From the NCBI GenBank assembly GCA_001600875.1, contig BCLD01000002.1, forward strand, positions 93,164 through 157,163: 64,000 nt of DNA. Direction: 5' to 3'. This stretch comes from Solicoccozyma terricola. Lineage: Eukaryota; Basidiomycota; Tremellomycetes; Filobasidiales; Piskurozymaceae. Positions within the stretch are counted from its first letter, which is position 1. Every line of letters starts with the position of its first letter. The translations under genes were made by a program, and so were the position numbers. The notes beneath the pieces are model-generated. The model searched no databases and was not told where the DNA came from. It saw nothing but the letters and a program-made list of their open reading frames with translations. This document shows positions 41,675 to 59,640 of the stretch, piece by piece.

Positions 41675-42511
41675 TGTAACGATCTAACGACGATCGTCAC
41701 ACCCGAGGATAGACGAGTCACTTGACTCTCTATTCGGTATCGGTCAGCGTTCGTTGGGGTCTGGATGGATTCGGACGGAAGTGGGTGGATCCACACGGTA
41801 TCATCTTCGTGTGTTCGTGTGTTCGTGTGTGTGTAAGCGGAGCGTGCTTCACTAAGTGCGTCTACGTTCGAGTGCCTCTAGACAATGGTCGGTCGTATAA
41901 TGCAACGGTCATAAGGGTGTTGCATACAATTGATAATATTGCTCGAGGAAAGAGAGCAATAACTAGAGTACCTACAAAAGGCTACCTTAAGTATGTAGGA
42001 CGGACGGGGGAACCTGGCTAATTGCCAAGGGAGCCTGGCTAATTGCCATACCATCCAGACCGTACTGTTCTGACGCTCTATTGTTCCATGGAGGCCATAT
42101 TGGAGATACGGGCGTCGTATTGGAGATATGGGTGTCCGTGTACGACCGATCCAGGCTGCCAAGCTACGGTAGGATCGTATCACGACTTCAGAACGTAGGT
42201 TCGAGCCGACTTGTGGGTGTGTGAGCGGCGAGAGCATGTCTTAGTCGAATCCGGACGGATTCGGACGGATCCGTCTGATGGCGACCACGTCTGAGATGGT
42301 GTGAGTCGGTTTAGCTGCTGTCGGGCCGTAGACCTGACATATGTCCATTGTTCCTTGAACAATGGTTGTAGGTGTACGAGCCTAGTTCGGGTCACACGAA
42401 TGACGATGATAACGTGCGCGAGTTCATGTTGGATGACGTGGTGCCCCTATCTGATATCCTAGCACGACGGCGATGGGAGATCGTAGCATGTCCAGAGGAA
42501 TTCCCGTGACA
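41675..42511 (-). mobile_element. 3' LTR of Element 1
   Basis: About 837 bp. On the minus strand it begins TGTCACGGGAATTCC directly after the polypurine tract and ends CGTTAGATCGTTACA, giving TGT...ACA ends. It shares the GAGCAATATTATCAATTG hairpin region with Element 2's LTR but differs strongly elsewhere. It contains two Element 1-type motif sites (41761-41798 and 42245-42275). Confidence 0.85.
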
Positions 42512-42526
42512 GTCCCCCCCCTTTTA
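42512..42526 (-). other. Polypurine tract of Element 1
   Basis: On the minus strand CTCTAAAAGGGGGGGGACT lies directly before the LTR start. The preceding GCATCTTGCAGCTACACCC is shared almost exactly with Element 2. Confidence 0.85.
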
Positions 42527-42824
42527 GAGCGGGTGTAGCTGCAAGATGCGCTCGCCATCCCCGTAACATTCGAGTATGCGTGTCGTGACTCATGAAAATT
42601 TTGCCACTGATTATATGGTTACCATATGATGTCATCAGGTTACCATCCTATTCGTTTCCCAGGAACAGGCAACGAAAGTCGTGTTCTCGCTTGCGAGGAA
42701 GCTAAGACTGTGGGCTGCGTAGTGAAAGTCCGTTGGTCCGACGCTGCAGGTCGTACGCTGTTGCTACGGCATGCTGTTGCGATCGTTGTCCCACGTTGTC
42801 TTGGCCTTGCCGGAGATCCCTCCT

Positions 42825-42925
42825 GTTTGCGCAGTATCTGACAGTGTTTCCTTGTGTTTGCGCAGTCGTCTCCTCGTGTTGCGCAGTCTTCCACGTTGTT
42901 CCCTCCTGTCTGCGCAGTATTCTAC
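42825..42925 (+). repeat. Repeated TGTTTGCGCAGT motif upstream of the Element 1 antisense gene
   Basis: Four copies of TGT(T/C)TGCGCAGT or TGTTGCGCAGT within about 90 bp (near 42827, 42856, 42874, 42907), 300 bp upstream of the antisense gene's TATA box. Related GTTTGCGCA copies lie upstream of the corresponding gene in Element 2. Candidate upstream activating sites. Confidence 0.6.
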
Positions 42926-43137
42926 GTTGTTCCCTCGTGTTTCAGAAGCGTTTGGTGGCTTCTAGCGTGAGGAAAAGAGGGTTTTCAACCCCAGATCGTG
43001 TTTGTCCCTGCATAACGACGATCTTGTGGCGTATCTCCATTGTTCCGAACAACGTCGTTCCACGACGACCAGGGGGCTCGTGTTTTGGCGAAAAATTTGC
43101 AGCGTTGCCAGCGTTGTCAGCGTTGGGGTACCCATTT

Positions 43138-43149
43138 GGATATATAAGG
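43138..43149 (+). promoter_or_regulatory. TATA box of the Element 1 antisense accessory gene
   Basis: GGATATATAAGG, about 95 bp before the ATG at 43239, followed by GGGGAATT. The same GGATATATAAGG...GGGGAATT block is found before the antisense gene of Element 2 (55731-55720 on the minus strand). Confidence 0.7.
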
Positions 43150-43238
43150 TGAGGGGAATTATGCAAATTCCCCTCCCACCTCGTTATACTTCATCGACAT
43201 CGCCATTGCCCCTCTTCGTTTCCTTTAACAACATCAGC

Positions 43239-44362
43239 ATGTCACCTCGAACTCGTCCTTCTACTGCCAGGGCCACTGCCCTTCGTCCGTCGCTTACGCC
43301 CCCACCTCGTCTTATAAGCAAAGAGGACGAGAAAGCCATCGAGGAGCTCGCGAAAATGGCGTCTGTTCCTGGTGCTGAGAAAATGATGACCGCCTTTCTC
43401 AATGACTATGGTCTGAAAACCCGCCCGGCCAACGAGGAGGAGGGGGAAGCGCGGGTGGCGCTTTTCAAAAGCTTGGTGAAAACGAAGAAAGTGAGCTGGA
43501 GTGCGACGACGTTGGTGACTGCTGGCCTCGCGTTTCCTGTGAGTGTGTTGGGCGATTTCGGTCGTTTCCGCCCGGATTCGTCCACTTCCGCTGACCTGTG
43601 CTTGTCGTCGTATAGGTACCCCGCAAGGTGACGATTCGTGGGACTCTGGTACCGAGCGTGGACCCCTGTTCCCACTGCCTAAAGCAAGTCCCGCCGCTCG
43701 TCTGCATGACAACCCTCGTCGAGGATGGGTTGTTGGTTAAGAACTACAGCAACCAGTGCTCTGCCTCGAAGAGCAAGTGTTCGATTGGTCCAGCGAGGAT
43801 ATCGAATGCGGTCACGCTCGCTACTTCCATCGGGGTCGGGCTTCGTGGACTGGGGGCGCAGCTGCGAGTTGCCGGATTCGCTGGCGACGGTCCTCTCGCC
43901 ACGGCGGAGAAGTTGATGGAAGATGTCCTCAAGCTTCTCCAGGCGACAGTTCCGGCGGCATCGACGGCGGTTAGGAAAGCTCTCCGCGACTCCGACGGCG
44001 AGACTCAGAAATTATCTGAGTCGGTCGTTAACCCCTCGTCCGCTCCGAGCTTCTCGCAGAGTGGGTACCCGTCTGGCCGTCCCTTCAGCCGTGCTCCCAT
44101 GGTTAAGTCGGAGTACCGTGGTCGTGAGTGTAAGTTCCGCTGGTTGCAGCGTGGTGTCCGTATCGCTGACCAGGTCTCTTTGTCAGTCGCGTCGCCACAG
44201 AAGGGGCCTCGGTCTCCCTGGAAGGGTAAGCAGAAGGCTACCTCCGAGGACGAGGAGGAGTCTGACAGGGGTGGGGCGGAGTCGGGGTCGGGGTCGGGCG
44301 AGGAGGAAGAAACGCCGCCGCCCCCGAGGAAGTTCAAGAGGGCCCGTGGCGGGGGCCAGTAG
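43239..44362 (+). CDS. Antisense accessory gene of Element 1, Cys-rich protein
   Basis: Transcribed against gag-pol. Exons 43239-43538 and 43616-44362 (GTGAGT donor, TATAG acceptor) give 348 residues. Exon 1: VPGAEKMMTAFLNDYGLKTR, PANEEEGEARVALFKSLV, WSATTLVTAGLAFP. After the intron: VDPCSHC, a spaced Cys in PLVC, then NYSNQCSASKSKCSIGP, a pattern that could bind zinc. The C-terminal third is Ser/Glu-rich with a basic end (PRKFKRARGGGQ) that could direct nuclear import. Element 2 has a homologue at the same place with the same intron position. Function unknown; nucleic-acid binding is a guess from the Cys pattern and charge. It ends 106 bp from the stop of the sense accessory ORF, tail to tail. 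Confidence 0.75.
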
Positions 44363-44468
44363 AGGGCGAGATGGCTCTTTTCTCCACCTTTTGTTTCTTC
44401 CGACGTTTCGTGTCGAAGAGATACATCGATTGTACCTTTTAGTCTTGTCCTTCCTTTATCGATGTCAT

Positions 44469-45173
44469 CTACTGCGGGAATCTCTCCACTGCATCCGCGA
44501 GTGTGTCGTGGAATGGTGCCTCATAGTATTCCGCAACTATCGTTCTCCAATGGTCAAGATTCTCCTCGAACTCGCCGGCGTTGAAGTAAGTGTCGTACTG
44601 CAGTTGATATAGGAGGTGGTGACCCAGAGTGTAAACCTCGTGTATGTCGTCGGATATAAGGAGTTCTCCCCATAGTTGCACTTCATTCGGCGAATCCACT
44701 TCCCCGTGGGCCAACAGTGTTCCTATGTGCCGTTGGTCGGTCCTAGTCAGCATTAAGTGCAACAATGTCACCTTTAACAGGGACAGTTTTAGCCGCTGGT
44801 CCGCTCCCCTATTCGATTCTTCGAGGTAGTGTGACAAGGGTAGTTTATCCCCTTCGTATAGCTGTCCACCGGACGTTTCCGTCAGATCAAGGAGGAATGG
44901 GTGTCGAATTTGGAGGAGTAGTCGTATTTTGTGGAGAGTATCCCGAGCCTTGCTATACGGCGGCGGGATTGGACGAAACTCGTCATGCCAGAACCCATGG
45001 TCGCTATTTTCATCGGTTACGTCCGGGTCCTCCGACCAGTCATTACTATCAGAGATGGTACTGGCGGCGTTGGTGCTCAGTTGAGAATCGACTGGCGATA
45101 CTGAGCGAGTATCCGTGGGCATGGTAGAGCACGGGGTTGGGCGGATCCGGGTGGATTCGGATGGATTGACCAA
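44469..45173 (-). CDS. Sense accessory ORF of Element 1 (downstream of pol)
   Basis: 234 codons from ATG at 45173, or 217 from the ATG at 45122 whose sequence (RSVSPVDS) aligns with the Element 2 start (RSVSPVEA). Family not recognised. Shared with Element 2: TLHKIR..LQ...PFLLD, L.LSLLKVTLLHLMLT, GEVDSPNEVQLWGELL, HEVYTLGHHLLYQL and a WRTIVAEYYEAPFHDTLADA ending. Acidic N-terminus, helical body. No membrane segment, so it does not look like an envelope gene. The frame is intact in an otherwise broken element. Confidence 0.75.
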   Translation of the reverse strand: MVNPSESTRIRPTPCSTMPTDTRSVSPVDSQLSTNAASTISDSNDWSEDPDVTDENSDHGFWHDEFRPIPPPYSKARDTLHKIRLLLQIRHPFLLDLTETSGGQLYEGDKLPLSHYLEESNRGADQRLKLSLLKVTLLHLMLTRTDQRHIGTLLAHGEVDSPNEVQLWGELLISDDIHEVYTLGHHLLYQLQYDTYFNAGEFEENLDHWRTIVAEYYEAPFHDTLADAVERFPQ

Positions 45174-45223
45174 AGGTGTATGAATATGCGTTCAATGTCA
45201 GAATTCCGCTCGAGTACAGGCCC

Positions 45224-46895
45224 TTATACCCGTCGATGCCTCGACTTCTTCCCCTGCGAGACTCCTTTTTTCTCCACAGGTTCCATTGGGCCACCCGGCG
45301 CTGACGGGTGGGCTTGGTAGTACTCTTCGACGAGGCTGTCAGGCACTATCGCATCCTCCCATTCCCAGGATGCAGCATCGTCGGTGTGTTCCCATCCACG
45401 CCACTGGATAAGGTATTCCAAATGTCCCTTCATTCTTCCTCGTGCTCCGACCCAGTCTGAGTCCAAGATTCGTTCCACCTCGTACTCGTTCGACTCCAGT
45501 TCCACCGGACCTGGCGGCTGTACTTGGCGTTCGGGAATGAATGAAGGGGAGGGGGCGGGTTCGAGTAGGTCCACGTGGAAGACATTGTGAATCCTCATCT
45601 TCGTCCCTAACTGCAGCCGGTACGCCCAATCATTAATCTTTTCTGTGATCATAAATGGGCCGTAGTTCTTGGCGTCCAGTTTTGGCGAAGGGCGTAGCGT
45701 GGAGAGGTGTTTCCCATTGAGGAACACGAAGTCACCCACTTCGAAAGCCGGTGTGGGGAGGTGGCTGCGATTGAACTGCGCAGCTTGACGTTCCTGAGCC
45801 TTTTTAAGTTCCCCACGCACATATTGATGTACTTCGGCTAAATCCGCGGCTTGTTCGGAAGCAGCGGGTGCAGTTCCAGCGTTAAACAGTGCTCGGATGT
45901 CAAACCTTGGGTGATAACCATAATTTGCGAAAAACGGTGTTACCTTGATGGAGGAATGAATGGTGTTATTCCTCGAGAATTCCGCGAGGGCCAGATATTG
46001 GGCCCAGTCGTTTTGCATGTACGTGACATAGAAACGGAGGTACGTTTCCAACTCTTGATTAACCCGTTCCGTCTGTCCATCTGTTTGCGGGTGATAAGCC
46101 GTACTAAACTTAGCTTCGACCCCCCAGATGTTTGAGGAACTCTCTCCACCAGGACGAGGTAAAGGTTGCTCCTCGGTCGGATACGATCGACTTTGGCAAG
46201 CCATGGTGTCGAAAGATGTTCCTTACGAAGAGTTGTGCGAGGTCTGAAGCCATAGCCGTGTCAGTCGTGGGGATATACTTACTCATTTTACTAAGCCTGT
46301 CCACCACGACCAGGATGGCGTTGCATCCCTCCGATTCTGGCAGTCCCACGATGTGGTCCATCTTGATGTCGTCCCATGGTCGTGAGGGAGCCTCGAGGGA
46401 TCTGAGGAATCCATACGGTGCATGGCGTTTGGCTTTGTTCCTCGCACAGGCATGGCATGTCTGCACAAAATCTCGTATCCACTTGTCCATCGCCGGCCAG
46501 TAGTAATCGCGGCTGACGAGGTCGTGCATCTTGTGAAGGCCTGGGTGGCCTGCAGTGACACTGTCATGTCTATTAACGAGCACGTCCAGTCGAGCATTGA
46601 GATAATCGGGAACCACGAGACGATCTCTGTAGATTAGCAGTCCTTCGCGAGTCCATGACACCGTCGGCTCGCTGGAATGATTGGTTCCCTGACCAAAACC
46701 GCCGTCATTGCCGTCTCCCAGAGGGGGCGAACGGAGGGATCGTGCTGGAGTCCTTCCAATAGCTTGTCCATCAGTGTCACCGCCTTGGGGTGTGTGGCAC
46801 GGAGGAGAAAAGGTTCGTCGACGTCCTTTCCCCAACCACTTGGGAGTAGAGTAGTGGGGCGAAACGTTTTCGAGGGCAGTCCCGGGCGGATTCGT
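45224..46895 (-). pseudogene. Element 1 pol, integrase and chromodomain part, frameshifted
   Basis: Integrase zinc-binding region: NRHDSVTAGHPGLHKM...FVQTCHACARNK. Catalytic core: KMDHIVGLP, VSDRGATFTS, and HPQTDGQTERVNQEL. C-terminal chromodomain: YEVERILDSDWV...HLEYLIQWRGW. Two frame breaks: near 46680, where the frame used by KLLEGLQHDPSVRPLWETAM is lost before SEPTVSWTREGLL, and near 46118-46125, where a G run (CTGGGGGGTCG) shifts the frame between the second and third catalytic residues. The enzyme cannot be made intact from this copy. Confidence 0.88.
46891..46895 (+). other. Target-site duplication of Element 2, left copy
   Basis: ATTCG immediately before TGTCACGGG. The same five bases follow the 3' LTR at 57306-57310. 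Confidence 0.92.
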
Positions 46896-46935
46896 GTCAC
46901 GGGAATTCCTCTGATACGAACAACGACTCCAGTAT

Positions 46936-47016
46936 CGCTCGCCTACGACATGTCATCATACTCGCTCGCCTGCGACACGTCATCATACTCGCTCACCTGC
47001 GACACGTCATCATACG
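46936..47016. repeat. 27-bp tandem repeat in LTR U3
   Basis: Three copies of CGCTCGCCTGCGACACGTC followed by ATCATACT, with small variants (ACATGTC in the first). The 3' LTR has two copies (56455-56508). Palindromic GACATGTC/GACACGTC cores could bind a regulator. Confidence 0.85.
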
Positions 47017-47303
47017 CGTCGCCCAATATCAGAGTCACCCCTGACTTCAACCGTCGCCCCATTGCTGTGTCCTTTACGAGGGACACGATGCCAGTGGACC
47101 TTCGCTCCGCTACGGGGGCCGACNCTCGTTCGATATGGATAAATGGTCGCACGCCATTCATGGACGATCTTCCGTTCCATCTCCCTGTCGCCATCGACGG
47201 ACAGCGACCTGCCGGGACCCATCTGGACCCTACGCCAGCTCGCTTCCAGTCTCCATCCTCGTAGCCGAGTATCACCGACCAAAGGGAGTTACGGCGAGAC
47301 CCT

Positions 47304-47853
47304 NNNNNNNNNNNNNNNNNNNNNNNNNNNNNNNNNNNNNNNNNNNNNNNNNNNNNNNNNNNNNNNNNNNNNNNNNNNNNNNNNNNNNNNNNNNNNNNNN
47401 NNNNNNNNNNNNNNNNNNNNNNNNNNNNNNNNNNNNNNNNNNNNNNNNNNNNNNNNNNNNNNNNNNNNNNNNNNNNNNNNNNNNNNNNNNNNNNNNNNNN
47501 NNNNNNNNNNNNNNNNNNNNNNNNNNNNNNNNNNNNNNNNNNNNNNNNNNNNNNNNNNNNNNNNNNNNNNNNNNNNNNNNNNNNNNNNNNNNNNNNNNNN
47601 NNNNNNNNNNNNNNNNNNNNNNNNNNNNNNNNNNNNNNNNNNNNNNNNNNNNNNNNNNNNNNNNNNNNNNNNNNNNNNNNNNNNNNNNNNNNNNNNNNNN
47701 NNNNNNNNNNNNNNNNNNNNNNNNNNNNNNNNNNNNNNNNNNNNNNNNNNNNNNNNNNNNNNNNNNNNNNNNNNNNNNNNNNNNNNNNNNNNNNNNNNNN
47801 NNNNNNNNNNNNNNNNNNNNNNNNNNNNNNNNNNNNNNNNNNNNNNNNNNNNN
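47304..47853. other. Assembly gap (550 N) inside the 5' LTR
   Basis: The matching interval of the 3' LTR is 56796-57033, 238 bp, so the gap is probably over-sized by about 310 bases. Confidence 0.95.
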
Positions 47854-48127
47854 ACGTCTCTTCATATTGCTCTCTTCCCTCGAGCAATATTATCAATTGT
47901 ATGCCCACATAAAGCATCACACGAGCGACCTTTGCCCATAGGCGTTCAAGCTAGACCTCTTACTTCGCCAGCTGCCACGCTTGCACCCACGTACACGAAC
48001 CCAGGTCGCTACCCGTCGACGTCGACGGACAGCGACACGCTATAGGACATAGCTGATCGAACATTGGATAGAGAGTCAGGTGACTTGTCTATCTCGAACG
48101 TGGCGATCGACGTTAGATCGTTACAGT

Positions 48128-48139
48128 ATAATATTGCTC
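48128..48139 (+). other. Primer-binding site, self-priming type
   Basis: ATAATATTGCTC, two bases after the LTR, is the exact reverse complement of GAGCAATATTAT within the LTR (47882-47893; 3' LTR equivalent about 57062-57073). This matches the Tf1/sushi mode, in which the 5' end of the RNA folds back as primer, and would place the transcription start at that LTR position. Confidence 0.7.
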
Positions 48140-48180
48140 CCGTTACTCTTATTCGATAACGGTCAGCGAACGAAACAAGA

Positions 48181-49400
48181 ATGCCTCCGAAGGCACCAGT
48201 ACCAATTAGGGCAAGGCCCGTGAGAGACTCTCCGTCTCTCGGTAACAACGATCAGCCTGGGGCGATTCCCGCAGGCGCCGTCGTTGGTCAACAAGGCTCG
48301 CAGGTAGCGAGGCCTACTCCGACACAAGACACGGCTGTTCAGCCGTCCGGGACCATCCAAGGTGGAGGTCCCACCACCATCAACACAAGTACGCTCACAC
48401 CCATCGAGCCTAAAGGGAAAGGCCGCGCAACCTCCTCGGTTGCCAGTGACAGGAGTCACGGCCGCAAGCGAAGCCAACAAGGGTCTCGGACCTCACAAGC
48501 AAGCCCCCCGGGCCCCACCCGAGGGCATGACATCGCACCAGCCCTTCTCGAACAGATCTCTCGGTTACTAGATGCGAGGCTCGGTCCGGTCGATAGGAAC
48601 AGAAGCCCATACCCTATCGGTACCAACGACCGTCCCTACACGGCCCCTACCTTCAAAAGGGAGCAATCCATCTCGTCCGATAGATCCTCTACAGCTCCCT
48701 GGAATAAAAGGGAAGCCACAAGCCTCCCTCCGACCAAGAAGAAAGCGGTCCTATCCAAACACCATTTCACCTCGGCGGATAGCGATGATGAGGCTGCGAT
48801 GGATGGCGACGTCAACGTTAGGTTCAAACTAATCGAATTCTATGGGAAGACAGATGTCAAGAACGAAGTCGAGAGGTTCATTGCGAACAATGAACTAGTC
48901 TTCGACCTCAAACGCCAACAATTTCGAAGCGACACCCAGAAGATCAACTTCATGGCCACCCTCTTCCGAGATGACGCTCAGGAGTGGTACGAACCGTACC
49001 AAGGGATGGAGAGGCTGGACAAACCAGAATGGTGTCTTAAGTACTCGCTCTTTGTTAAGGAACTCCTAGACGAATTTGGCGACCCAAAGCCACTTGAATC
49101 AGCTTCGGACCGAATCCTTGCGTGCAAACAGAAGCCTATGCAAGACGTCAGACAATATCACCGAGAGTTCTCCGGTATCGCAGTCAAGCTCAAGGACTGG
49201 GGCGAGGCTTCCTTCGCTCGACTCTTCTTCCAGGGCCTCGCTCCTGAAATCCAAGTGCTCGTTAGCAACGCCAACAACGATTTCCCGACGACCCTCAAGG
49301 GCATGCGAGATGTCGCAGTACAAGCTTACCGCCGACAGGAGGCCCTACACAAGGAACCTAAGGAGCTACGAGACGGTCGACACAAGTCGACACTACCCTG
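48181..49400 (+). CDS. Element 2 gag, matrix/capsid part
   Basis: Starts MPPKAPVPIRARPV. A basic, disordered N-terminal 200 residues is followed by a capsid-like retrotransposon gag domain: KINFMATLFRDDAQEWYEPY, FVKELLDEFGDPKPLESAS, MQDVRQYHREFSGIAVKL, FFQGLAPEIQVLVSNAN. The frame runs on to 49536 but the residues after about 49400 are out of register. The nucleocapsid continues in the -1 frame from about 49380. The break falls in a GTCGACACAAGTCGACAC stretch (49374-49395), so copy-number change in that motif could be the cause. Confidence 0.85.
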
Positions 49401-49796
49401 CCACGAGGCATGTACACCGTCACCCCTAAGGCCCAAAACCCTGCTGCAAAGACCCCCGACGCGGTGCCTCGCTACACGGCGCAGTACCCCAAATCAGGGG
49501 TGCAGGTGGGGAATTACTCCAGCCGCCCTCCGATAGTGCATGGACGGTCTAACGACGAGCGCAACCGACTGGTCGCACAGGGCCGCTGCCTCGGTTGCGA
49601 GGAGCTTGGGCACATGTACGCCGAGTGCCCGAAGAACAAGAACAACGAGGGCAAGCAAAACCTTCTGAACCCCAATGCCCCGGCGAAGGCCCCGCCTCGT
49701 GTCCGCGTCATCCAACTCTACGAGGAAGAGGAGGAACAAACTGCGGACGAGAACGCCGAAGAAGAGCCAAAAAATGGCTCTGCGACCTTGACGTAG
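49380..49796 (+). CDS. Element 2 gag, nucleocapsid part with zinc knuckle
   Basis: Frame -1 to the capsid frame. Contains the CCHC zinc knuckle CLGCEELGHMYAEC (C-x2-C-x4-H-x4-C) and an acidic tail (EEEEEQTADENAEEEP). It ends with TAG at 49794-49796, 19 bases after a slippery heptamer. Whether it is joined to capsid by a second frameshift or separated from it by mutation is not clear. Confidence 0.8.
   Translation, partial: TQVDTTLPRGMYTVTPKAQNPAAKTPDAVPRYTAQYPKSGVQVGNYSSRPPIVHGRSNDERNRLVAQGRCLGCEELGHMYAECPKNKNNEGKQNLLNPNAPAKAPPRVRVIQLYEEEEEQTADENAEEEPKNGSATLT
49769..49775 (+). promoter_or_regulatory. -1 ribosomal frameshift site, A AAA AAT
   Basis: Zero-frame codons CCA AAA AAT; slipping back one base reads AAA AAA TGG and enters the pol frame (KKWLCDLDVGRV), 18 bases before the gag stop. 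Fits the X XXY YYZ rule. A stimulatory RNA structure downstream was not tested. Confidence 0.6.
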
Positions 49797-52700
49797 GCCG
49801 TGTCAAGGTTCGCGCTATTGGATCGGCCCAATCGCTCGAAGATGTTGGGAAGCTCTTCGAGAACATGATGGTCGGTCCCTCCCCCTCTTCCCCCTTTCGA
49901 GTTCGGTTTGCTGTGTCGGATAATGAAGCTCTCCTTGTAGCACGAGTATCTGTCGATAGGATCAATTTTTCGCTGGTTGCATGTCTCCTAGACACTGGTG
50001 CAACGATCAACTTAATCCGACGCGACAGCCTCCTGCTCAAGACTGCGAAGATTTGCCACTACTCGCAACCGCGAAAGCTTGAACTGGCGGACGGGTCGAT
50101 CTCCAGTTTTGCCCCTATCGAAACCTTCATCATGGCTACCTTCCAATTCGGCCTTGGTGTACCCCCCAAGCGAATCAAGCTAGATATCGCCGACCTCGGC
50201 GGTACCGAAGTAATCTTGGGGGGACGTTTCTTCAAGGACGGCAAAATCGTTATGGACTGGGATAAGAACGAACTAGAGTTCCCCAGCCACACGGTTCTCG
50301 ACCTCCTCGGCAACGACCTGCAGGGCGAACTCCAGGACATAGAGGACGAGTGGGCGGTAGGACGAGCACGAGCGCTCCGAACAAGTAGCGTCCACCCAGA
50401 CCATCTATTGGCCAACGTGGACTTTGGGGTAGTGCAAGACTCCGTCACCCATCTGGAGCTATCCCAGCTGGTCGCCGCAGGTCGATGCAGGTCGACATCG
50501 ACATTCCCCTATCAAGAACTAGTGGATGTGCCTAGTATCGATTTCGACTACCTAGGTGACAACGACGACTGGCAAGACCTGGAAGAGGACGAAATCAAGG
50601 CCCTTGTCCCGGAGGAATTCCACCATTGGGTAGATATCTTCCGCAAGTCCAAGGCCGACCAACTGCCTCCTCACAGGGCTTGCGACCACCGCATCGACTT
50701 AGTCCCCGATGCTCGACTTACTACTGGACCAATCTACCGGTTAGCAAGAAAGGAAGACGAATGGGTACAGGACTTCCTCACGACAAACTGTGCCATGGGT
50801 CACCTTCGACAGTCTCCTGCACCTCACAGTAGCCCGATCTTCGCTATCCCCAAGAAAGACGGAACATATCGACTCGTAACTGACTACCGCAAGCTAAACG
50901 CAGTTACCGTCAAGGACGCGACCCCCCTGCCAAGTATCGAGACCATACTCGACCAAATGGCAGGAGCCGAAGTCTTTATATCCTGCGACCTCCCCCGAGC
51001 ATATCAGCTCATCAGGATGGCCGACGGGCATGAACACTACACCACCATCCGACACCAGCGAGGTCAACATGAATCACTGGTGATGAGGGACGGTCTCTGT
51101 AACGCTCCGGCGACCTTTCAGGGTTTCCTGAACGAGATCTTCCAACCCCTTATCGGCCGAGGTGTGGTGGTCTACATAGACGACATAGCAGTCTATGGCA
51201 AGACGGAGGAAGAAGTGCGGACAACCTTCCTCGAAGTCCTTCGAATTCTCAAAGAGAATTCCCTCTACCTCAAGCCGACGAAGTGCTTCTTTTATACGAG
51301 AAGTATCAACTTCCTTGGCTACGAGATCTCCAAGGATGGCATCCAGATGCAAACCGCCAAGATTGATGCGGTCCGGGACTGGCCCGAACCGAAGGACGTC
51401 AAGGGAGTCCAACGCTTTTTAGGATTCGCTAACTTCTATCGAAAGTTTATCGACAGTTACGCACGGATCACCACCCCACTGACAAGACTGACCAGGAAGG
51501 ATCAGGAGTGGGTCTGGGGCGAGGAGCAAAAGCAGGCATTCGCGGATCTCAAATGGATGTTTACAGAGGCCCCCATCCTGAAACATTTCGATAGGGATCG
51601 AAAGCTCTATCTGGAAACGGATGCCTCCGACTTCGCAGTGGCCGCTGTGGTTAGCCAACTGTACGAATCTGGCGAAGGCGACGACAGGAAGACGCGCCTA
51701 CACCCAGTGGGCTATTACTCTCGCAAGCTTATCGCGGCCGAACTCAACTACACAGTGCACGATAAAGAGCTACTGGCAATAGTAGAAGCGTTCGTACACT
51801 GGAGCTTCCAGTTCCGAGACAATGCATTCCCGATCGACATCATCACCGATCATCGGAACCTGGAGTACTTCATGGACAAGAAGCAGCTAAATCGCCGACA
51901 TGCTCGTTGGCATGAATTCCTTCAGGAATACGACTTCTCGATTCGCTATCGACCGGGTATCAAGGCAGTTCGGCCGGATGCCCTCTCCAGACGTGAGGAC
52001 TATCATGCTGGCAAAGGGGCAAGCCTGGATCCGGAGCACAACCCCGGTAACTTCACGTCTCTGCTCCCCAAAGGATGGGGTGAGGACGTTACTGAGCGGT
52101 TCTTACTCCGAGGGGTGAGCCCTGGAGGTGTCGACACAGGTCGACGCAGGTCGACGGCGACATCCCCAAGGGCGGTCTCGCTTGCCGACAAGCTTCTCGA
52201 GGGGCTGTCACACGACCCCTCCATCCGCCCGCTGTGGGAAACGGCCATGACGGCTATCCTCGTCAGCGAACCACCGATTCTGGGAGACCCAACCGTGGCT
52301 TGGACGTATGACGGTCTCCTACTATATCGAAACCGTCTAGTAGTGCCCGACTACCTCAACGCACGATTGGATGTCCTCACCAATCGCCACGATAGTGTCA
52401 CGGCAGGGCACCCTGGAATACACAAGATGCGGGAACTAGTCAGCCGGGACTACTATTGGCCGGAAATGGACAAGTGGGTACGGGATTTCGTACAAACTTG
52501 TCATGCATGTGCTCGTAACAAGGCAAAACACCACGCACCCTACGGGCTTCTCAAATCGTTGCAAGTACCCACACGACCGTGGGACGATATCACAATGGAT
52601 CACATCGTAGGCCTGCCTGTCTCTGAGGGGTGTAACGCCATCCTGGTGGTCGTGGACCGTCTCAGCAAGATGTGCAAGTATATCCCCACGACAGATACAG

Positions 52701-53731
52701 CGACGGCAGCGGACTTGGCTCAGTTGTTCATTCGGCACATTTTTCGACACCATGGCTTGCCAAAATCGATCGTATCCGACCGAGGAGCAACTTTTACCTC
52801 ACAATGGTGGCGAGAATTCCTCAAGCAACTGGGGGTAGAAACGAAGTTTAGCACCGCCTATCACCCCCAGACCGATGGACAAACTGAGCGGGTGAATCAG
52901 GAACTCGAGACGTATCTCCGGTTCTATGTTACCTACATGCAGGATGACTGGATTCAGTACCTTCCTATAGCGGAATTTGCGAGGAATAACACGACCCACT
53001 CGTCCATCAAGGTAACGCCGTTCTTCACGAACTACGGATACCACCCCCGGTTTGATGTCCGAGTACCTTTGAAAGCCGGAACCTCCCCGGGAGCATCCGA
53101 GCAGGCCTCGGACCTGACGGAAGTTCATCAATACGTCCAGACCGAGCTCAAAAAGGCCCAAGAACGTCAGGCATCTCAGTTTAATCGACGACACCTCCCA
53201 GCTCCGAACTACAGCATAGGGGATTATGTCTTCCTTAAGGGCAAACACCTCTCTACCTTGAGGCCCTCGCCGAAACTGGACGCCAAGAACTATGGTCCGT
53301 TCATGATAGTCGCGAAGATCTCAGACTGGGCGTACCGACTCCAACTGGGACCAAACATGCGAATCCATGACGTGTTTCACGTGGAGCTACTCGAACCCGG
53401 ACCGGCCCCTTCCTTCATACAGGGTCGTGAGGTGGAACCTCCTGGACCGGTGGAACTGGAATCAAACGAGTATGAGGTGGAACGCATTCTGGATTCCGAC
53501 TGGGTGGGTGCGTGGGGGACAACAAAAGCGCACCTCGAATACCTCATTAAGTGGCATGGCTGGGACAATACCGACGACGCTGCGACATGGGAACGAGCTG
53601 AAGCTATTGTTTCGACAACCCTGGTCGACGAATACTATGAAACGCACCCAACAGCCCTTGGAGGACCAGATGAGCCGCTGGAGAAACAGGGGGTCTGGCA
53701 GAGGAAGAAGGCGAGGCATCGTCGTGTATAA
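49775..53731 (+). CDS. Element 2 pol polyprotein (PR-RT-RNase H-IN-chromodomain)
   Basis: About 1,318 codons after the frameshift. Aspartic protease: LLDTGATINLIRR (about 49988). RT: IFAIPKKDGTYRLVTDYRKL (about 50830), SCDLPRAYQLIRM, LCNAPATFQGFLNEIF, and the active site VVYIDDIAVYG (about 51170). RNase H: LYLETDASDFAVAAVVSQLY, and TDHRNLEYFMDKKQLNRRHA. Integrase: HRHDSVTAGHPGIH/CHACARN zinc site reading NRHDSVTAGHPG and CHACARNK, core MDHIVGLP, SDRGATFTSQWW, and HPQTDGQTERVNQELE. Chromodomain: NEYEVERILDSDWV then HLEYLIKWHGWDN and TWE. The frame is open throughout, so the copy may be functional apart from gag. The reading frame extends upstream to 49595, overlapping gag. Confidence 0.95.
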   Translation, partial: WLCDLDVGRVKVRAIGSAQSLEDVGKLFENMMVGPSPSSPFRVRFAVSDNEALLVARVSVDRINFSLVACLLDTGATINLIRRDSLLLKTAKICHYSQPRKLELADGSISSFAPIETFIMATFQFGLGVPPKRIKLDIADLGGTEVILGGRFFKDGKIVMDWDKNELEFPSHTVLDLLGNDLQGELQDIEDEWAVGRARALRTSSVHPDHLLANVDFGVVQDSVTHLELSQLVAAGRCRSTSTFPYQELVDVPSIDFDYLGDNDDWQDLEEDEIKALVPEEFHHWVDIFRKSKADQLPPHRACDHRIDLVPDARLTTGPIYRLARKEDEWVQDFLTTNCAMGHLRQSPAPHSSPIFAIPKKDGTYRLVTDYRKLNAVTVKDATPLPSIETILDQMAGAEVFISCDLPRAYQLIRMADGHEHYTTIRHQRGQHESLVMRDGLCNAPATFQGFLNEIFQPLIGRGVVVYIDDIAVYGKTEEEVRTTFLEVLRILKENSLYLKPTKCFFYTRSINFLGYEISKDGIQMQTAKIDAVRDWPEPKDVKGVQRFLGFANFYRKFIDSYARITTPLTRLTRKDQEWVWGEEQKQAFADLKWMFTEAPILKHFDRDRKLYLETDASDFAVAAVVSQLYESGEGDDRKTRLHPVGYYSRKLIAAELNYTVHDKELLAIVEAFVHWSFQFRDNAFPIDIITDHRNLEYFMDKKQLNRRHARWHEFLQEYDFSIRYRPGIKAVRPDALSRREDYHAGKGASLDPEHNPGNFTSLLPKGWGEDVTERFLLRGVSPGGVDTGRRRSTATSPRAVSLADKLLEGLSHDPSIRPLWETAMTAILVSEPPILGDPTVAWTYDGLLLYRNRLVVPDYLNARLDVLTNRHDSVTAGHPGIHKMRELVSRDYYWPEMDKWVRDFVQTCHACARNKAKHHAPYGLLKSLQVPTRPWDDITMDHIVGLPVSEGCNAILVVVDRLSKMCKYIPTTDTATAADLAQLFIRHIFRHHGLPKSIVSDRGATFTSQWWREFLKQLGVETKFSTAYHPQTDGQTERVNQELETYLRFYVTYMQDDWIQYLPIAEFARNNTTHSSIKVTPFFTNYGYHPRFDVRVPLKAGTSPGASEQASDLTEVHQYVQTELKKAQERQASQFNRRHLPAPNYSIGDYVFLKGKHLSTLRPSPKLDAKNYGPFMIVAKISDWAYRLQLGPNMRIHDVFHVELLEPGPAPSFIQGREVEPPGPVELESNEYEVERILDSDWVGAWGTTKAHLEYLIKWHGWDNTDDAATWERAEAIVSTTLVDEYYETHPTALGGPDEPLEKQGVWQRKKARHRRV

Positions 53732-53837
53732 GTATCTACCGTCGCTGGTGGTGTTTGGTTTGGGGACTATATTACGATTCTTTACCCACACAACCCGTCG
53801 ACGTCGATGGACGGCGACCTGCAGCGACCTACGGACC

Positions 53838-54425
53838 ATGGAACGACCCCCCCGCCGATCGGTCTCCCCTGTGGAGGCCCTATTGTCCGATAGCGATGAC
53901 GAAGACGCGCCGGAAGTATACCCCCGTGCCCGCTGGCGTCGGGACAACCCCCGGTTCAGCACGACGCGAGAAGTGTTACACCGGATCCGCCGGGAAATAC
54001 AACGAACAACACCATTCCTGCTGGACCCCATGTACTGTTCCGGTGACGCCCTGTTTTGGAAGGACCTACGCCCCCTCTCTTTCTGGCTCCCCGACCTACG
54101 AGTGGAAGGCGTCCTCAAGATACCCCTGCTGAAGGCAGCATTCTTCCAACTAGCGCTGACACCCTACGAAACCCGGAACCTCTTGCTCAACGACGTACAT
54201 GGAGAAGCACATTCAGTCGAGGAAGCTCGGCTGTGGGATGAAATAGGACTCTGCGCGGACGCACACGAACTCTACACCGTCGGCCACGAGCTCCTATCTC
54301 GACTCAACCTTGTAGATAGCCTCTACAGCGAGAGAGTGTTTAAATGGCGACTGCTGGTACAGGACTACTACATTGCCCCGCTCCGAGATAGCATTCGGGA
54401 AGCACAGGTGATGTACGGCGCATGA
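53838..54425 (+). CDS. Sense accessory ORF of Element 2
   Basis: 195 residues from ATG 53838 (MERPPRRSVSPVEALLSDSD). Homologous along its length to 45173-44469 of Element 1: TREVLHRIRREIQRTTPFLL, LKIPLLKAAFFQLALTPYET, HGEAHSVEEARLWDEIGL, HELYTVGHELLSRL and WRLLVQDYYIAPLRDSI. No known family recognised. No signal peptide or membrane segment. It follows pol by 106 bp in the same frame class as a normal third gene and ends 16 bp from the end of the antisense gene. Conservation across two clearly diverged elements implies selection (inference). Confidence 0.8.
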   Translation: MERPPRRSVSPVEALLSDSDDEDAPEVYPRARWRRDNPRFSTTREVLHRIRREIQRTTPFLLDPMYCSGDALFWKDLRPLSFWLPDLRVEGVLKIPLLKAAFFQLALTPYETRNLLLNDVHGEAHSVEEARLWDEIGLCADAHELYTVGHELLSRLNLVDSLYSERVFKWRLLVQDYYIAPLRDSIREAQVMYGA

Positions 54426-54441
54426 ATCCATCATTAACAAA

Positions 54442-55643
54442 CTAGAGAAGGTACAACAGATGGATTCCTTCGACATGTTGTCGGCATCGATTCACAGGAA
54501 TCGGCATCGATACGGAATCGGACCACGTCAGGTGGAGAAAACGGCCACCACGCCGTACAAACCCCCTCCGCCCCCTACCCCTGCCTCCCTTTCCCCTTCC
54601 GATCGGGACGAGCACGAGCGCTGTCCAAGTCCTCCGGGAGGGGCGACATAGGAGAGGACACCCTCCCCCCCCGGGCCCCCCCTGCTCCTCCTCCGCCCCC
54701 TGCCCCATCTCTTCATCCTCCGCCTCCTCCTCCTGCTCCGGACGAGTGTTGGAACCACTAGCCACCGCGTTTTGATGGCGGCCAGCGGGGGTTGAAGGCG
54801 AGGGCGCGGGGCGGTAAGGGTGGTCTCTGAAGGACCTCCGGACTCGCTGGGTCCCACGCATCGGCGTCATGGTGGACGGGGGAGTAGGGTGGTGACGGCC
54901 GGCCACGGAGTAGGGGTCGACGACGAACGCGGCGGCGAGACGAGTTGCCTTATCGGAGGGACCCAGGACCGCCTCCATCGCCTGCAGGGCCGGAGCGGAC
55001 ACCTCACGGAGCAACGAGATGACCTGCGTGACCACCTGTTGCGAAGCCTCCAGCGCGGGACGAGACGGGGGGTCCTGGTCACGGAGGATCGACGAGAGAC
55101 TTTGCATCGCGACCCCGATGGCGGTTCCTCGAGAGGTCAGGCTGTTAACGTGGAGGGCCCCGAGCGAACACCTCCCGTGACCAGTCGAGCAGGGAACGCA
55201 GTAGTTGCCGGTCATCAAACCGTCCTTGCCCAAAAAGATCGTACAGTGCCGGACGTTACGGCACTGTTCGCAGGGGACGGCGGCATCACCCACGAGGCAG
55301 ACGGGGCGAGCGGGTGGGACCTGTTCGGGACACAAGCGGAACGGAGTCAGGCCTGTACACGTCGACGTCGACGGACCGCGACACTCAGTGGGAAACCGAG
55401 TCCAGCAAGCACCAGCCTCGTAGGACTCCACCGCGCACGATGTGGCATTTCGGCCTTGAAAAATCGTACCCGCTGTTCACCCTCCTCTTCGTTGGCGGGG
55501 CCCTCGCGGATGCCGTAGTCCCGACAGAACTGCGGCGTAAGAACCTCGGCACCCGGCGTGGAGGCATGAGCGACTAATTCTCGAATAAGGGCGACGACCT
55601 CGGCAGTAAGGTCGGGATAAAGCTCGGTGTTATAGGCGGCCAT
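54442..55643 (-). CDS. Antisense accessory gene of Element 2, Cys-rich protein
   Basis: Exon 1 55643-55389 (MAAYNTELYPDLTAEVVALI; TPGAEVLTPQFCRDYGIR; PANEEEGEQRVRFFKAEM; TRLVLAGLGFP) and exon 2 55320-54442 (VPPARPVCLVGDAAVPCEQC; NVRHCTIFLGKDGLMTGNYC; CSTGHGRCSLG). Alignment with Element 1 puts the intron at the same codon boundary (after FP, before VP). The donor here reads CTGAGTG instead of GTGAGTG, so normal splicing should fail. If unspliced, exon 2 could start from an ATG at 55431 (329 codons). The Cys pattern C-x2-C...C...NYC-x2-C-x6-C suggests zinc binding. The basic C-terminal region (GRGKGGRGRGRRG) could bind nucleic acid. Confidence 0.72.
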
Positions 55644-55719
55644 GGTGGATGAATACGAGAACGATGAAGTATGGACTGGGACGGGGGGATGTCGACGGAA
55701 TTCGACAGAATTCCCCCTG

Positions 55720-55731
55720 CCTTATATATCC
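55720..55731 (-). promoter_or_regulatory. TATA box of the Element 2 antisense gene
   Basis: Minus strand GGATATATAAGG, about 85 bp before the ATG at 55643, followed by GGGGGAATT as in Element 1. Confidence 0.7.
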
Positions 55732-55816
55732 AGCCGACACCGTAGGATAGCCCCACCGCTGGGGCAGAAAATTTTCCCCAACGCAGGATGACACGCCTCC
55801 GCAGCAAGTATGAGAA

Positions 55817-56170
55817 CCCCGATACTAGCCTGAAACAGGGATTAGGGATCGACGTTGTCAGGGACAACCTCTCTCTGCTCAAAAGTCACACGCTTTCGGC
55901 GCTAGAAGCTGAACGATGCTTCTTGAACATGTGCAAACAACGGAAGTAACTGCGGAATGGGACAACACGAGGCTCGTAGGACAACTAAGTACGCCCCGAT
56001 ACTAGCCTGAAACAGGGATTAGGGATCGACGTTGTCAGGGACAGCCTCTCTCTGCTCAAATTCACACGCTTTCGACGTCAGAAGCTGAACGATGCTTCTT
56101 GACCATGCGCAAACAACGGAAGTGACTGCGGATTGGGACAACACGAGGCTCGTAGGACGCCTAATTACGC
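55817..56170. repeat. 177-bp tandem duplication upstream of the antisense gene
   Basis: Two adjacent copies (55817-55993 and 55994-56170), beginning CCCCGATACTAGCCTGAAAC, about 90% alike by eye. Each includes TG(C/T)GCAAACAACGGAAGT, the reverse of the GTTTGCGCA motif seen upstream of the Element 1 gene. Position just upstream of the TATA box suggests a duplicated control region. Confidence 0.85.
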
Positions 56171-56398
56171 CTCCCAAGACCAACACGAGGCTCTCTAACA
56201 ACACGGTGCTTTTGCTAGCAGTGCAGGACCAGCAGATGCGGACTTTTGACTGCCAGCGCCACCGGACCCTCGCTTCGAATTGCGCAGTCTACGTTCTCAG
56301 TAGCCGAGGACACGACTTTAATGGTCTTTCCATGCGTCGACATGGTGACGACAACGTACGGCAATATTGCGGTCGCATCTTGCAGCTACGCCCGCTCT

Positions 56399-56413
56399 AA
56401 AGGGGGGGGGGAC
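56399..56413 (+). other. Polypurine tract of Element 2
   Basis: AAAGGGGGGGGGGAC directly before the 3' LTR start TGTCACGGG; primes plus-strand DNA in this family. Confidence 0.88.
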
Positions 56414-57305
56414 TGTCACGGGAATTCCTCTGATACGAACAACGACTCCAGTATCGCTCGCCTACGACATGTCATCATACTCGCTCACCTGCGACACGTC
56501 ATCATACGCGTCGCCCAATATCAGAGTCACCCCTGACTTCAACCGTCGCCCCATTGCTGTGTCCTTTACGAGGGACACGATGCCAGTGGACCTTCGCTCC
56601 GCTACGGGGGCCGACACTCGTTCGATATGGATAAATGGTCGCACGCCATTCATGGACGATCTTCCGTTCCATCTCCCTGTCGCCATCGACGGACAGCGAC
56701 CTGCCGGGACCCATCTGGACCCTACGCCAGCTCGCTTCCAGTCTCCATCCTCGTAGCCGAGTATCACCGACCAAAGGGAGTTACGGCGAGACCCTACGGG
56801 ACGTTCCGATCAAGACATGGACGAATGGGGATTGCTGGGGTACCTTTCGGTACCTTGGCAGATGGTCCCGACGACATAGGAGGTCCAAGAACGCTTGGGA
56901 CCAAGGACGTCGCGACCCGCATTGCAAATATGGTCGTTCGAGGGATGCTGGCATTAGCCGGTATGGCCCGGACAGGACTGGCGAGCAGCCAGGGTTTCCC
57001 NTCCGTTTTTAGGTACATAAGGAAGCCTTCTGTACGTCTCTTCATATTGCTCTCTTCCCTCGAGCAATATTATCAATTGTATGCCCACATAAAGCATCAC
57101 ACGAGCGACCTTTGCCCATAGGCGTTCAAGCTAGACCTCTTACTTCGCCAGCTGCCACGCTTGCACCCACGTACACGAACCCAGGTCGCTACCCGTCGAC
57201 GTCGACGGACAGCGACACGCTATAGGACATAGCTGATCGAACATTGGATAGAGAGTCAGGTGACTTGTCTATCTCGAACGTGGCGATCGACGTTAGATCG
57301 TTACA
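56414..57305 (+). mobile_element. 3' LTR of Element 2
   Basis: 892 bp, TGTCACGGG...GATCGTTACA. Contains the U3 27-bp repeat (two copies), the two motif sites (56681-56706, 57182-57216), a TACATAA element at about 57013, and the hairpin ATTGCTC-N8-GAGCAAT leading into the predicted RNA start GAGCAATATTAT. One ambiguous base at 57001. Confidence 0.94.
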
Positions 57306-57310
57306 ATTCG
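57306..57310 (+). other. Target-site duplication of Element 2, right copy
   Basis: ATTCG directly after GATCGTTACA; matches 46891-46895. Confidence 0.92.
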
Positions 57311-59640
57311 TCCGGATCCGTCCTCTGGTGACCTCGACGGGTCTTCCGTGATCCATGCGACCCGTAATAGGAAGGTTTCGGTGACTTCTGGCCCCCATCC
57401 TTCCGGTAGGAGCGAGGTGAAGTTACCAGGGTTGTGTTCCGGTAGGAGACTTGCACCCTTACCCGTGTGGTAATCCTCTCGGCATGAGAGAGCATCTGGG
57501 CGCACTGCCTTGATTCCGGGACGATATCGAATGGAGAAATCGTACTCTTGGAGGAACTCATGCCATCGAGCATGTCTCCGATTGAGTTGCTTCTTGTCCA
57601 TAAAATACTCCAAGTTCCTATGGTCGGTAATGATATCGATGGGGAACACGTTGTCCCGGAACTGGAAACTCCAGTGTATGAACGCTTCCATGATGGCGAG
57701 GAGCTCCTTGTCATGGACCGTGTAGTTGAGCTCCGCGGCTGCAAGCTTGCGTGAGTAGTAACCCACCGGGTGTAACCGTGTCTTCTTTTCCTGCCCATCA
57801 TCGGTCTCATATAATTGACTGACGACAGCGGCTACTGCGAAGTCGGATGCGTCGGTCTCAAGGTATATCTTACGATCCCTATCAAAGTGTCGCAAAATGG
57901 GTGCCTCCGTGAACCTCTTCTTGAGTTCTGCGAAAGCTTCCTGCTGTTCCTCCCCCCATACCCACTCTTGTTCCTTCTTGGTCAGAGTGGTGAGTGGGGT
58001 AGTTATGCGAGCATCACTATCGATGAATTTCCGATAGAAATTGGTGAATCCAAGGAATCGTTGCACTCCTCTAACATCCGTTGGAGCAGGCCATTCTCGA
58101 ACCGCCTCTATCTTAGCGGATTGCATCTGGATGCCATTTTTCGAGATCTCGTATCCAAGGAAGTTGATAGACTTTGTGTAAAAGAAACACTTCGTGGGTT
58201 TGAGGTATAGGGAATTCTCCTTGAGAATACAGAGAACTTCTAGGAACGTCGCTCGGACCTCGTTCTTCGTCTTCCCATAGACAGCAATGTCGTCGATATA
58301 GACAACGATGCCTCTCCCAATCAGGGGTTGGAAGATCTCGTTCAGGAAGCCTTGGAAGGTGGCTGGGGCGTTACAGAGTCCATCACGCATGACGAGGGAT
58401 TCGTGTTGTCCTCGTTGATGTCGAATGGTGGTGTAATGTTCATGTTCTTCCGCCATTCGAATCAACTGGTACGCTCGCGGCAGGTCGCAGGAGATGAACC
58501 ATTCGGCTCCTGCGAGTTGATCGAGGATCGTCTCAATACTGGGAAGGGGAGTCGCATCCTTGACGGTTACCGCATTGAGCTTGCGGTAATCGGTAACGAG
58601 ACGATATGTCCCATCCTTCTTAGGTATCGCGAAGATAGGACTGCTGTGTGGAGCCGTGGATTGACGCAGGTGACCGGTAGCGCAGTTGCTGGTTAGAAAC
58701 TCCTGTACCCATTCGTCTTCTCTCCTCGCTAGATGGTAGATAGGTCCAGTCGTGAGNCGGGCGTCAGGTATGAGGTCGATGCGGTGATCACATGCGCGGT
58801 GGGGAGGTAGCTCATCCGCCTTGGATTTACGAAAGATGTCCATCCACTCGTGGAACTCCTCAGGGATGAGAGCCTTGATCTCGTCTTCTTCCAGATCTTG
58901 CCAATCCTCGTTATCCCCGATGTAGTCGAAGTCGAAGACTGGGGCGTCCACCATATCAGGGTCAGGAGAGGTCGAGGCCGCGCGGATCCGGACGATTCCG
59001 TGCAACTCTTCCAAGTCCTGCTCGGTGAGTTGTTCTTGACCTATGCCGAAGTCCACGTTTGCCAGGCTTTTGTATGGGTGAGTGCAATTCGGTCGTAGGG
59101 CCCTAGCCCTTCCTACCGCCCACTCNTCCTCAATATCCTGTAGTTCTCCTTGCAAATCATTGCCAAGGAGATCGAGTATCGTGTTGCTAGGGAATTCTAG
59201 CTCATTCTTTTCCCAGTCCATCANGATCTTTCCTTCTTTGAAGAATCTTCCGCCTAAGATTACTTCTGTTCCTCCAAGGTCGGCAATGTCTAGTTTGATC
59301 CTCTTCGGGGGAACCCCTGCTCCAAACTGGAAAGTCGCCATGATGAAGGTATTGATCGGGGCGAAGTTTGGTATCGATCCATCCGCTAACTCTAACTTTC
59401 GTGGTTGCGTGTATTGGCATATTTTGGCAGTCTTGAGCAAGTGGCTGTCTCGTCGAATCAAGTTGATCGTTGCACCAGTNTCTAATAGACAGGCAACAGG
59501 AGAGAAATTGATCCGATCGACAGAGACTCTTGCTACAAGGAAAGCTTCATTATCCGATACCGCAAAACGAACTCGAAAGGGAGAAGGGGATGGACCGACC
59601 GTCATCTTCCCGAAGAGTTTGTTAACATCTTCGAGGGAAC
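57311..59640 (-). pseudogene. Element 1 pol, protease-RT-RNase H part, separated by insertion
   Basis: Open frame on the minus strand. Protease motif in ACLL.TGATINLIRRD (the Asp codon contains an n at 59480). RT: YRLVTDYRKLNAVTVKDATP, SCDLPRAYQLIRM, VVYIDDIAVYGKT. RNase H: YLETDASDFAVAAVVSQLYE and FMDKKQLNRRHARWHEF. It stops at the Element 2 insertion inside the RNase H-integrase linker. Homology to Element 2 ends abruptly at about 59640 (SLEDVNKLFGKM), so gag and the 5' LTR are missing. Four ambiguous bases (58757, 59126, 59224, 59480) suggest collapsed repeat copies. Confidence 0.9.

Follow-up and report, generated by a model that had tools for sequence, protein, structure and literature searches.

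An intron-containing antisense gene with six conserved cysteines follows pol in Ty3/gypsy chromodomain elements of Solicoccozyma terricola

Results

An antisense gene after pol

Ty3/gypsy chromodomain elements of the basidiomycete Solicoccozyma terricola carry, after pol and on the opposite strand, an intron-rich gene, here called AS, whose product contains six conserved cysteines; this gene is real and widespread among the Ty3 elements of this genome. The analysis covers a 64-kb window (positions 93,164 to 157,163 of contig BCLD01000002.1; coordinates below are those of the window unless a contig is named) and the assembly of which it is a part (23.9 Mb in 33 contigs). The genome's 42 listed matches to Zn_clus, a family restricted to fungi, agree with a fungal origin, whereas KDZ transposase, tried as a marker, matched neither the genome nor the controls and so carries no information. 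Two elements, A and B, lie in the window and a third, C, lies on contig C1; in all three, pol is followed by a sense open reading frame (ORF), S, and by the convergent AS. As an earlier note on this DNA had reported for A and B, the S/AS pair lies between pol and the 3′ long terminal repeat (LTR), AS begins at 55643 in A and 43239 in B, the sense proteins of the two elements align, as do the antisense proteins, and the position of the first AS intron is identical. The identity of intron position extends to C and to an orphan AS copy, D (contig C9:192821-193917). The short words that the same note saw at the junction of the two genes are likewise shared, with AAGGTACAA at 54448 in A and at 44430 (minus strand) in B, and CTTCGACA at 54468 and at 44411 (minus strand).

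An integrase query of the genome returned 23 matches, corresponding to 22 loci; some four at the bottom of the list score weakly (E 1e-5 to 3e-4, 26-27% identity) and are perhaps not close kin. An antisense gene of the six-cysteine type follows pol at 10 of these 22 loci (A, B, C, E1, E2, G, H, K, L and M); at A, B, C and E1, where the LTR was located, it lies between pol and the 3′ LTR, and at the six further loci it lies after pol. Both LTRs of E1 are present and are 99% identical over 456 nt. In a tree of 15 integrase loci, the AS bearers fall into two groups, one with A, B, C, E1 and E2 (support 83/89) and one with G, K, H, L and M (100/100). The loci without a visible AS are placed nearer the first group; four rows of the alignment are less than half filled, and the joining of long branches in this tree is unsafe.

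The cysteine cluster itself was searched for as two halves of the form C-x2-C-x5-9-C, 40-200 nt apart, in the flanks of the 22 loci (1.5 kb for most of them). Paired halves are found in the antisense 3′ flank at eight of 22 loci: seven are AS genes with their cluster inside the 1.5-kb flank, and the eighth, L050, is probably a chance match. They are found in no sense 3′ flank, in one antisense 5′ flank and in no sense 5′ flank. When the 20 longer flanks were shuffled in 100 runs with dinucleotide composition approximately kept, the mean number of loci with paired halves was 0.05 and the maximum was 1.

Relatives of both proteins exist in other elements, so the refuting condition that the earlier note set on this point does not hold. 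The AS-type matches with no pol nearby are D on contig C9, C24:283078, E3 at C2:640927 and a short, weak match at C2:1117033; the remaining AS matches from the genome searches sit in pol-bearing elements. D and E3 adjoin LTR sequence. D has an LTR-like tail at 192309, and a stretch of N from 195936 hides the surrounding element. E3 (C2:640751-641168) is a third E-type copy in which similarity to E2 stops within the second AS exon and, by eye, LTR-like sequence follows. The locus C24:283078-283316 is a cysteine gene of the H/M type with no recognisable pol within its 1.5-kb flanks. In the protein database, searches that scored the 8000 or 7999 candidates sharing most words with the query found only P0001 and P0004 as AS relatives, and in IMG/VR the AS profile gave 41 stretches matching the pattern and zero confirmed relatives. 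The AS query from B used in the genome, protein-database and Pfam searches (348 residues) contained 19 residues of unspliced second intron.

Structure of the AS genes

The AS genes of B, C and D have three exons, rather than the two described in the earlier note. The first intron interrupts the frame at one position in A, B, C and D, at the exon end 'GLxFP|', and a second intron is present in B (57 nt, in frame), C (58 nt) and D (71 nt). Both introns of B (43539-43615 and 44130-44186) are GT-AG, and both introns of D are canonical. E1 and E2 have five exons and four GT-AG introns. An intron falls between the two cysteine halves in G, H, K and L, and apparently also in M, where the acceptor is not fixed. 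No placement was found for a second intron in A. Between A and B/C, the identity of the AS proteins is roughly one-third to one-half.

Just beyond the AS stop, B (44365-44388) and C have a word resembling GGTGGAGAAAA..GCCA, with a similar word in D by eye; in A it is at 54531-54554. This word is a possible AS 3′-end signal. The start of AS in A at 55643 stands, and its end at 54442 is doubtful: when AS is read 5′ to 3′, the word that follows the stop in the other copies comes before 54442, and position 54575 holds a stop in a different frame.

Upstream of AS, the TATA-like block GGATATATAAGG is identical in A, B and C, and neighbouring words around it are likewise common to the three despite their diverged AS proteins; a different TATA-like block, GGTATATAGTC, is common to E1 and E2. 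The earlier note had reasoned that an antisense gene with an intron would need a transcript of its own, a logic to which these blocks lend support. In A, a stretch of about 177 bp is imperfectly duplicated in tandem (55817-56171) between the putative promoter of AS and the 3′ LTR.

Selection and silent divergence

The AS frames are coding and under purifying selection, strong in E1/E2 and moderate elsewhere, because nonsynonymous divergence (dN) is below synonymous divergence (dS), whereas control frames show this more weakly or not at all. Over 399 codons, the AS genes of E1 and E2 have 93 differences, distributed 12/7/74 among the three codon positions (dN 0.019, dS 0.352); their exons contain no indels, while two of the four introns have some. 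For B/C, dN and dS are 0.246 and 1.037 in AS exons 1-2 (dN/dS 0.24) and 0.082 and 0.444 in S (dN/dS 0.18). Thus dN/dS, proposed in the earlier note as a check on both genes, is not near 1 for either. The corresponding values for AS exon 3 of G/K are 0.353 and 0.866. Among five control frames, dN exceeds dS in four for both E1/E2 and B/C; for G/K it does so in two and the values are nearly equal in two. The wobble-matched reverse frame has dN below dS in all pairs, more weakly than the AS frame (0.028 and 0.258 in E1/E2).

Silent sites in AS are more diverged than those in integrase in all three pairs of close copies at hand. AS forms an island of low identity between B and C: across most of 44375-43252 the identity is 0.63-0.75, rising to 0.84 around intron 1, while outside AS it is 0.91-0.92 at 44531-44453 and 0.75-1.00 in the blocks that follow. 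There is a further drop in the 3′ half of S, to 0.75-0.79 at 44771-44611. At fourfold sites with identical first two bases, the differences in AS and integrase are 58/116 and 21/131 for B/C (Fisher P = 1.2e-8), 23/57 and 14/148 for G/K (P = 1.2e-6), and 38/175 and 6/131 for E1/E2 (P = 1.2e-5). A higher rate of protein change would not by itself explain the AS divergence, which extends to silent sites. The excess over pol points to modular exchange; it suggests that AS may have been exchanged between diverged elements, or that old AS alleles may have been retained while pol and the LTRs were homogenised. Constrained silent sites in pol would be a weaker explanation.

The AS protein

Six cysteines are invariant in all seven aligned AS proteins (D, E1, G, H, K, L and M). 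Outside that set, the six are kept in A and C, and five of the six are kept in B. The aligned proteins have two halves resembling C-x2-C-x6-C, the layout (C-x2-C-x6-C ... C-x2-C-x6-C) of the Zn2Cys6 family (PF00172, for example PUT3). The spacing varies: the first half is C-x2-C-x8-C in G and K, and the loop is longer in A-D. A match to Zn_clus (PF00172) below the cut-off was seen in four of six AS proteins scanned (C, E1, G, H, L and M), and PUT3 chains account for two of the three weak profile matches in the PDB (E 0.35 and 0.5). After the cysteine cluster there are, by eye, acidic runs and basic stretches resembling nuclear signals. No Pfam family is above the cut-off in the eight AS proteins scanned (B, D, C, E1, G, H, L and M), TRP28 (PF04195) has no match in these eight, and bZIP is not among the Pfam matches listed for AS proteins.

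CGG-rich words (CGGATTCGGACGG-like) occur in and near the B LTR, at 41766, 42246-42268 and 45152. The CGG-rich motif of the B and C LTRs was considered as a Zn2Cys6 target and rejected as too weak, with seven matches (at most two mismatches) against 2.4 expected and one of 100 shuffles as high.

The sense ORF S

The earlier note had treated S and AS as a conserved pair, a view that does not hold for the arrangement as a whole: AS occurs with no recognisable S after pol in E1 and E2, nor was any S recognisable within the 1.5-kb flank searched in G, H, K, L and M. S was seen only in A, B, C and two remnants in the genome, at C3:62275 and, weakly, at C20:67584, and so looks like an addition, not the core of the arrangement. 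The position given earlier for S in A is correct, whereas the start given in B, 45173, is too far upstream, the Met common to C and P0002 being at 45122. S of C is also 217 residues long. The S proteins of B and C are 84% identical, those of A and B 37%. The only S relatives in the protein database are P0002 and P0003 (83% and 82%); no Pfam or PDB relative is above the cut-off (best PDB E 0.27), and the S profile gave 30 stretches matching the pattern in IMG/VR, with zero confirmed relatives. A structure model of S is helix-rich and of poor confidence (mean pLDDT 44.7). The stops of S and AS are 16 bp apart in A, if AS ends at 54442, and 106 bp apart in B.

Architecture and nesting of the elements

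Element A (46895-57305, plus strand) has LTRs, gag, pol and a polypurine tract. It has the features of a Ty3/gypsy chromodomain element (chromovirus), namely the LTRs, the polypurine tract, a 5-bp target duplication, and a pol in which Pfam places reverse transcriptase, RNase H, integrase and chromodomain in that order. A nesting absent from the earlier note is also apparent: A sits inside the pol of B, which is on the minus strand, because the flanking parts of B pol meet at one point of C pol (2543/2539) and the 5-bp duplication ATTCG is found at 46890-46894 and 57306-57310. Neither gag nor a 5′ LTR of B was found within the window. In element C, gag, pol and both LTRs are in view; its 5′ LTR runs from 1233931 on contig C1 (99.3% identity over 136 nt, after which the remainder is lost in an N gap), and its 3′ LTR is 1243330-1244201. 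The coordinates of features in the window are collected in Table 1.

Table 1. Positions of AS, S and other parts of elements A and B in the window
Feature	Coordinates	Strand	Details
AS of A	54442..55643	-	exon 1 55643-55389, intron 55388-55321, exon 2 from 55320; 3′ end 54442 or about 54575
AS of B	43239..44362	+	exons 43239-43538, 43616-44129, 44187-44362
AS of A: upstream TATA-like block GGATATATAAGG	55720..55731	-	identical in A, B, C
AS of B: upstream TATA-like block GGATATATAAGG	43138..43149	+	identical in A, B, C
S of A	53838..54425	+	ORF, 195 aa
S of B	44469..45122	-	217 aa; 84% identical to C, 83% to P0002
5′ LTR of A	46895..48125	+	direct repeat with 56414-57305; 550-N gap 47304-47853; duplication ATTCG on both sides
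gag of A	48160..49536	+	ORF; Pfam Retrotrans_gag 5.9e-9, Ty3_capsid 3.6e-8
pol of A	49553..53731	+	ORF; Pfam RVT_1, RT_RNaseH, rve, Chromo above cut-off
Polypurine tract of A	56397..56413	+	sequence adjoining 3′ LTR
3′ LTR of A	56414..57305	+	direct repeat with 5′ LTR
5′ part of B pol, severed by A insertion	57306..59710	-	95.2% nt identity to C pol
3′ part of B pol (integrase, chromodomain)	45224..46894	-	93.9% nt identity to C pol
Polypurine tract of B	42512..42527	-	sequence
3′ LTR of B	41675..42511	-	89% identity to LTR of C over 879 columns

Discussion

The structure, position and orientation of the AS gene, the purifying selection on it, its shared cysteines and its breadth in this genome are observed directly; its transcription and splicing, zinc binding, nuclear role and regulatory function are inferred from the sequence. 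On balance, we consider it probable that AS is a self-promoted, spliced and probably nuclear regulator of the Ty3/gypsy chromodomain element that carries it. The conserved TATA-like blocks suggest a promoter inside the element, from which AS would be transcribed toward pol, and the conserved, frame-preserving GT-AG introns suggest that the transcript would be spliced. Since genomic RNA carries the complementary strand, reverse transcription would leave these introns in place. The product, with a Zn2Cys6-like six-cysteine cluster followed by acidic and basic tails, would most likely be a nuclear regulator that binds nucleic acid. It may act in trans on the transcription, copy number or integration of its own element, with specificity between element types, and such action would fit AS alleles that are unusually old and apparently exchanged.

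Several observations weigh against this explanation. No AS was visible at 12 of the 22 integrase loci in the flank covered (1.5 kb for most), in some cases because the flank is short or decayed (two of the 12, L033 and L047, have less than 300 nt of 3′ flank, and several are decayed fragments). Single cysteine halves are no test of AS, because they are as common in antisense 5′ flanks (10 of 22) as in antisense 3′ flanks (10 of 22), compared to 5 in the 5′ flanks and 1 in the 3′ flanks on the sense strand. A profile comparison of the A-D and E proteins gives a weak match (probability 20%, E 0.0011) that rests on the 'GLxFP' exon end and the cysteines; the case for a single origin of all AS genes is therefore built on their position, their orientation and the cysteines. 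There are signs of damage in two copies, A with a CT in place of the GT of its first donor (a GT six bases later would preserve the frame) and B with one of the six cysteines lost. The Zn_clus cut-off is reached by none of the eight AS proteins scanned (best 14.4 bits against 21), and the 42 matches to Zn_clus that are listed in the genome include no AS locus. Zn_clus is also not always the top weak match (in M, WAK_assoc has E 0.0053; in L, an IF5A-like family has E 0.039 against 0.041), and the best weak PDB match of AS is a copper chaperone (E 0.17). Finally, plain autoregulation does not by itself require the exchange of alleles.

A bolder proposal, which we put forward tentatively and think rather unlikely, is that AS proteins form a specificity system in which each would recognise its own element type, to repress or license it, and alleles would be exchanged to escape control by resident copies, much as might be likened to the immunity regions of phages. 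If true, such a system would be general in many fungal Ty3 elements, missed since annotation leaves the antisense exons unjoined.

We think it unlikely that AS and S, instead of regulating the element, help in its structure or replication, as nucleocapsid-like proteins or integration cofactors. Cysteine clusters occur in nucleic-acid chaperones too, and the model of S, poor as it is, is rich in helices; the antisense promoter, on the other hand, would decouple AS expression from that of gag-pol, the six-cysteine spacing is closer to Zn2Cys6 than to CCHC, and the protein has acidic and basic tails, none of which is decisive against a helper. We regard as more doubtful the idea that the antisense RNA itself is functional, as double-stranded RNA or by blocking sense transcription through transcription into pol, with the protein secondary. 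The same idea has been raised for plant antisense ORFs (PMC7264820, in the text accessible), and because the stops of S and AS are so close, sense and antisense transcripts would overlap. An RNA-only role does not, however, predict the third-position bias of E1/E2 (74 of 93 differences) or exons free of indels beside introns of which two in four bear them.

That AS is a captured host gene, now a decaying passenger, would account for the damage in A and B and for the four AS-type matches without pol nearby; we find it very improbable, given that AS occupies an identical place and orientation in two integrase groups, that selection on it is strong in E1/E2, and that D and E3 lie beside LTR sequence and other matches lie in pol-bearing elements. 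The last candidate, chance open frames mirrored from biased composition, is scarcely credible: the reverse wobble-matched frame is also (more weakly) conserved and single cysteine halves are frequent antisense to pol as well, but AS lies after pol without overlapping it, has frame-preserving GT-AG introns and invariant cysteines, shows paired halves almost confined to the antisense strand of the 3′ flank, and has a codon-position pattern in E1/E2 that already disfavours this origin.

These elements thus keep, under selection, intron-rich antisense genes within a reverse-transcribing element, in two integrase groups of one fungal genome. They carry a warning that annotation of elements may overlook spliced antisense genes, and they make the role of antisense accessory genes in LTR retrotransposons, as protein or as RNA, testable in a small fungal genome.

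The nearest known parallels include, as the earlier note proposed, plant antisense ORFs such as those of Grande-type elements. In the accessible text of two papers, the antisense ORFs of plant Ty3/gypsy elements (aORF-3R) comprise Grande gene23 and those of RIRE2, Retand (TRP28, PF04195) and PvRetro13; gene23 is driven by a promoter of its own and its product is nuclear, and the Retand product is predicted to bind DNA (PMC7264820, PMC11963269). Like AS, these ORFs lie antisense between pol and the 3′ LTR, and the Retand region holding the antisense ORF contains tandem repeats (PMC11963269), as A does at 55817-56171. AS differs in its six-cysteine cluster, its fungal host, its lack of TRP28 and its two to four conserved introns; the word 'intron' is absent from the accessible text of both papers, one of which calls for a look at antisense and spliced transcripts (PMC7264820). 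Moreover, Retand, as far as the available text goes, belongs to a non-chromovirus lineage, whereas the elements here have a chromodomain, and for a promoter like that of gene23 the counterpart here is the conserved TATA-like blocks alone, which may serve as one.

HBZ of human T-cell leukaemia virus type 1 (HTLV-1) is an antisense, spliced, bZIP regulator encoded near the 3′ LTR. By analogy, it resembles the role proposed for AS, that of an antisense, spliced, nuclear regulator near the 3′ LTR, with neither a bZIP match nor sequence relation in AS. A nuclear role of HBZ is mentioned in the accessible part of PMC11963269. The HTLV antisense promoter, according to the text seen of PMC7264820, is in the 3′ LTR, whereas the TATA-like blocks of AS are inside the element.

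Among fungi, the order of gag, pol and chromodomain is shared with the Tcn-type chromodomain Ty3 elements found in Cryptococcus and elsewhere in the fungi; TCN3 is described, in the portion available, as about 6.3 kb long with 606-bp LTRs and a 4.7-kb ORF (PMC12810828). Among the matches listed on fungal and basidiomycete Ty3 elements, with most subscription papers out of reach, there was no report of a spliced antisense zinc-cluster gene. The earlier note knew of no fungal antisense gene of this kind, and here it must be corrected: Boty-like elements of Botrytis cinerea carry the antisense gene brtn, as cited in the accessible text of PMC7264820, PMC8365987 and PMC4227169, which give Zhao et al. 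(2011, Virology) as the source. Judged by title and by the domain list in PMC4227169, Boty is, like the elements described here, a fungal chromodomain gag-pol LTR element with an extra antisense gene. Thus, an antisense accessory gene of Ty3 elements is of a kind already known, while its intron-rich, six-cysteine form and the island of silent-site divergence that it occupies look new.

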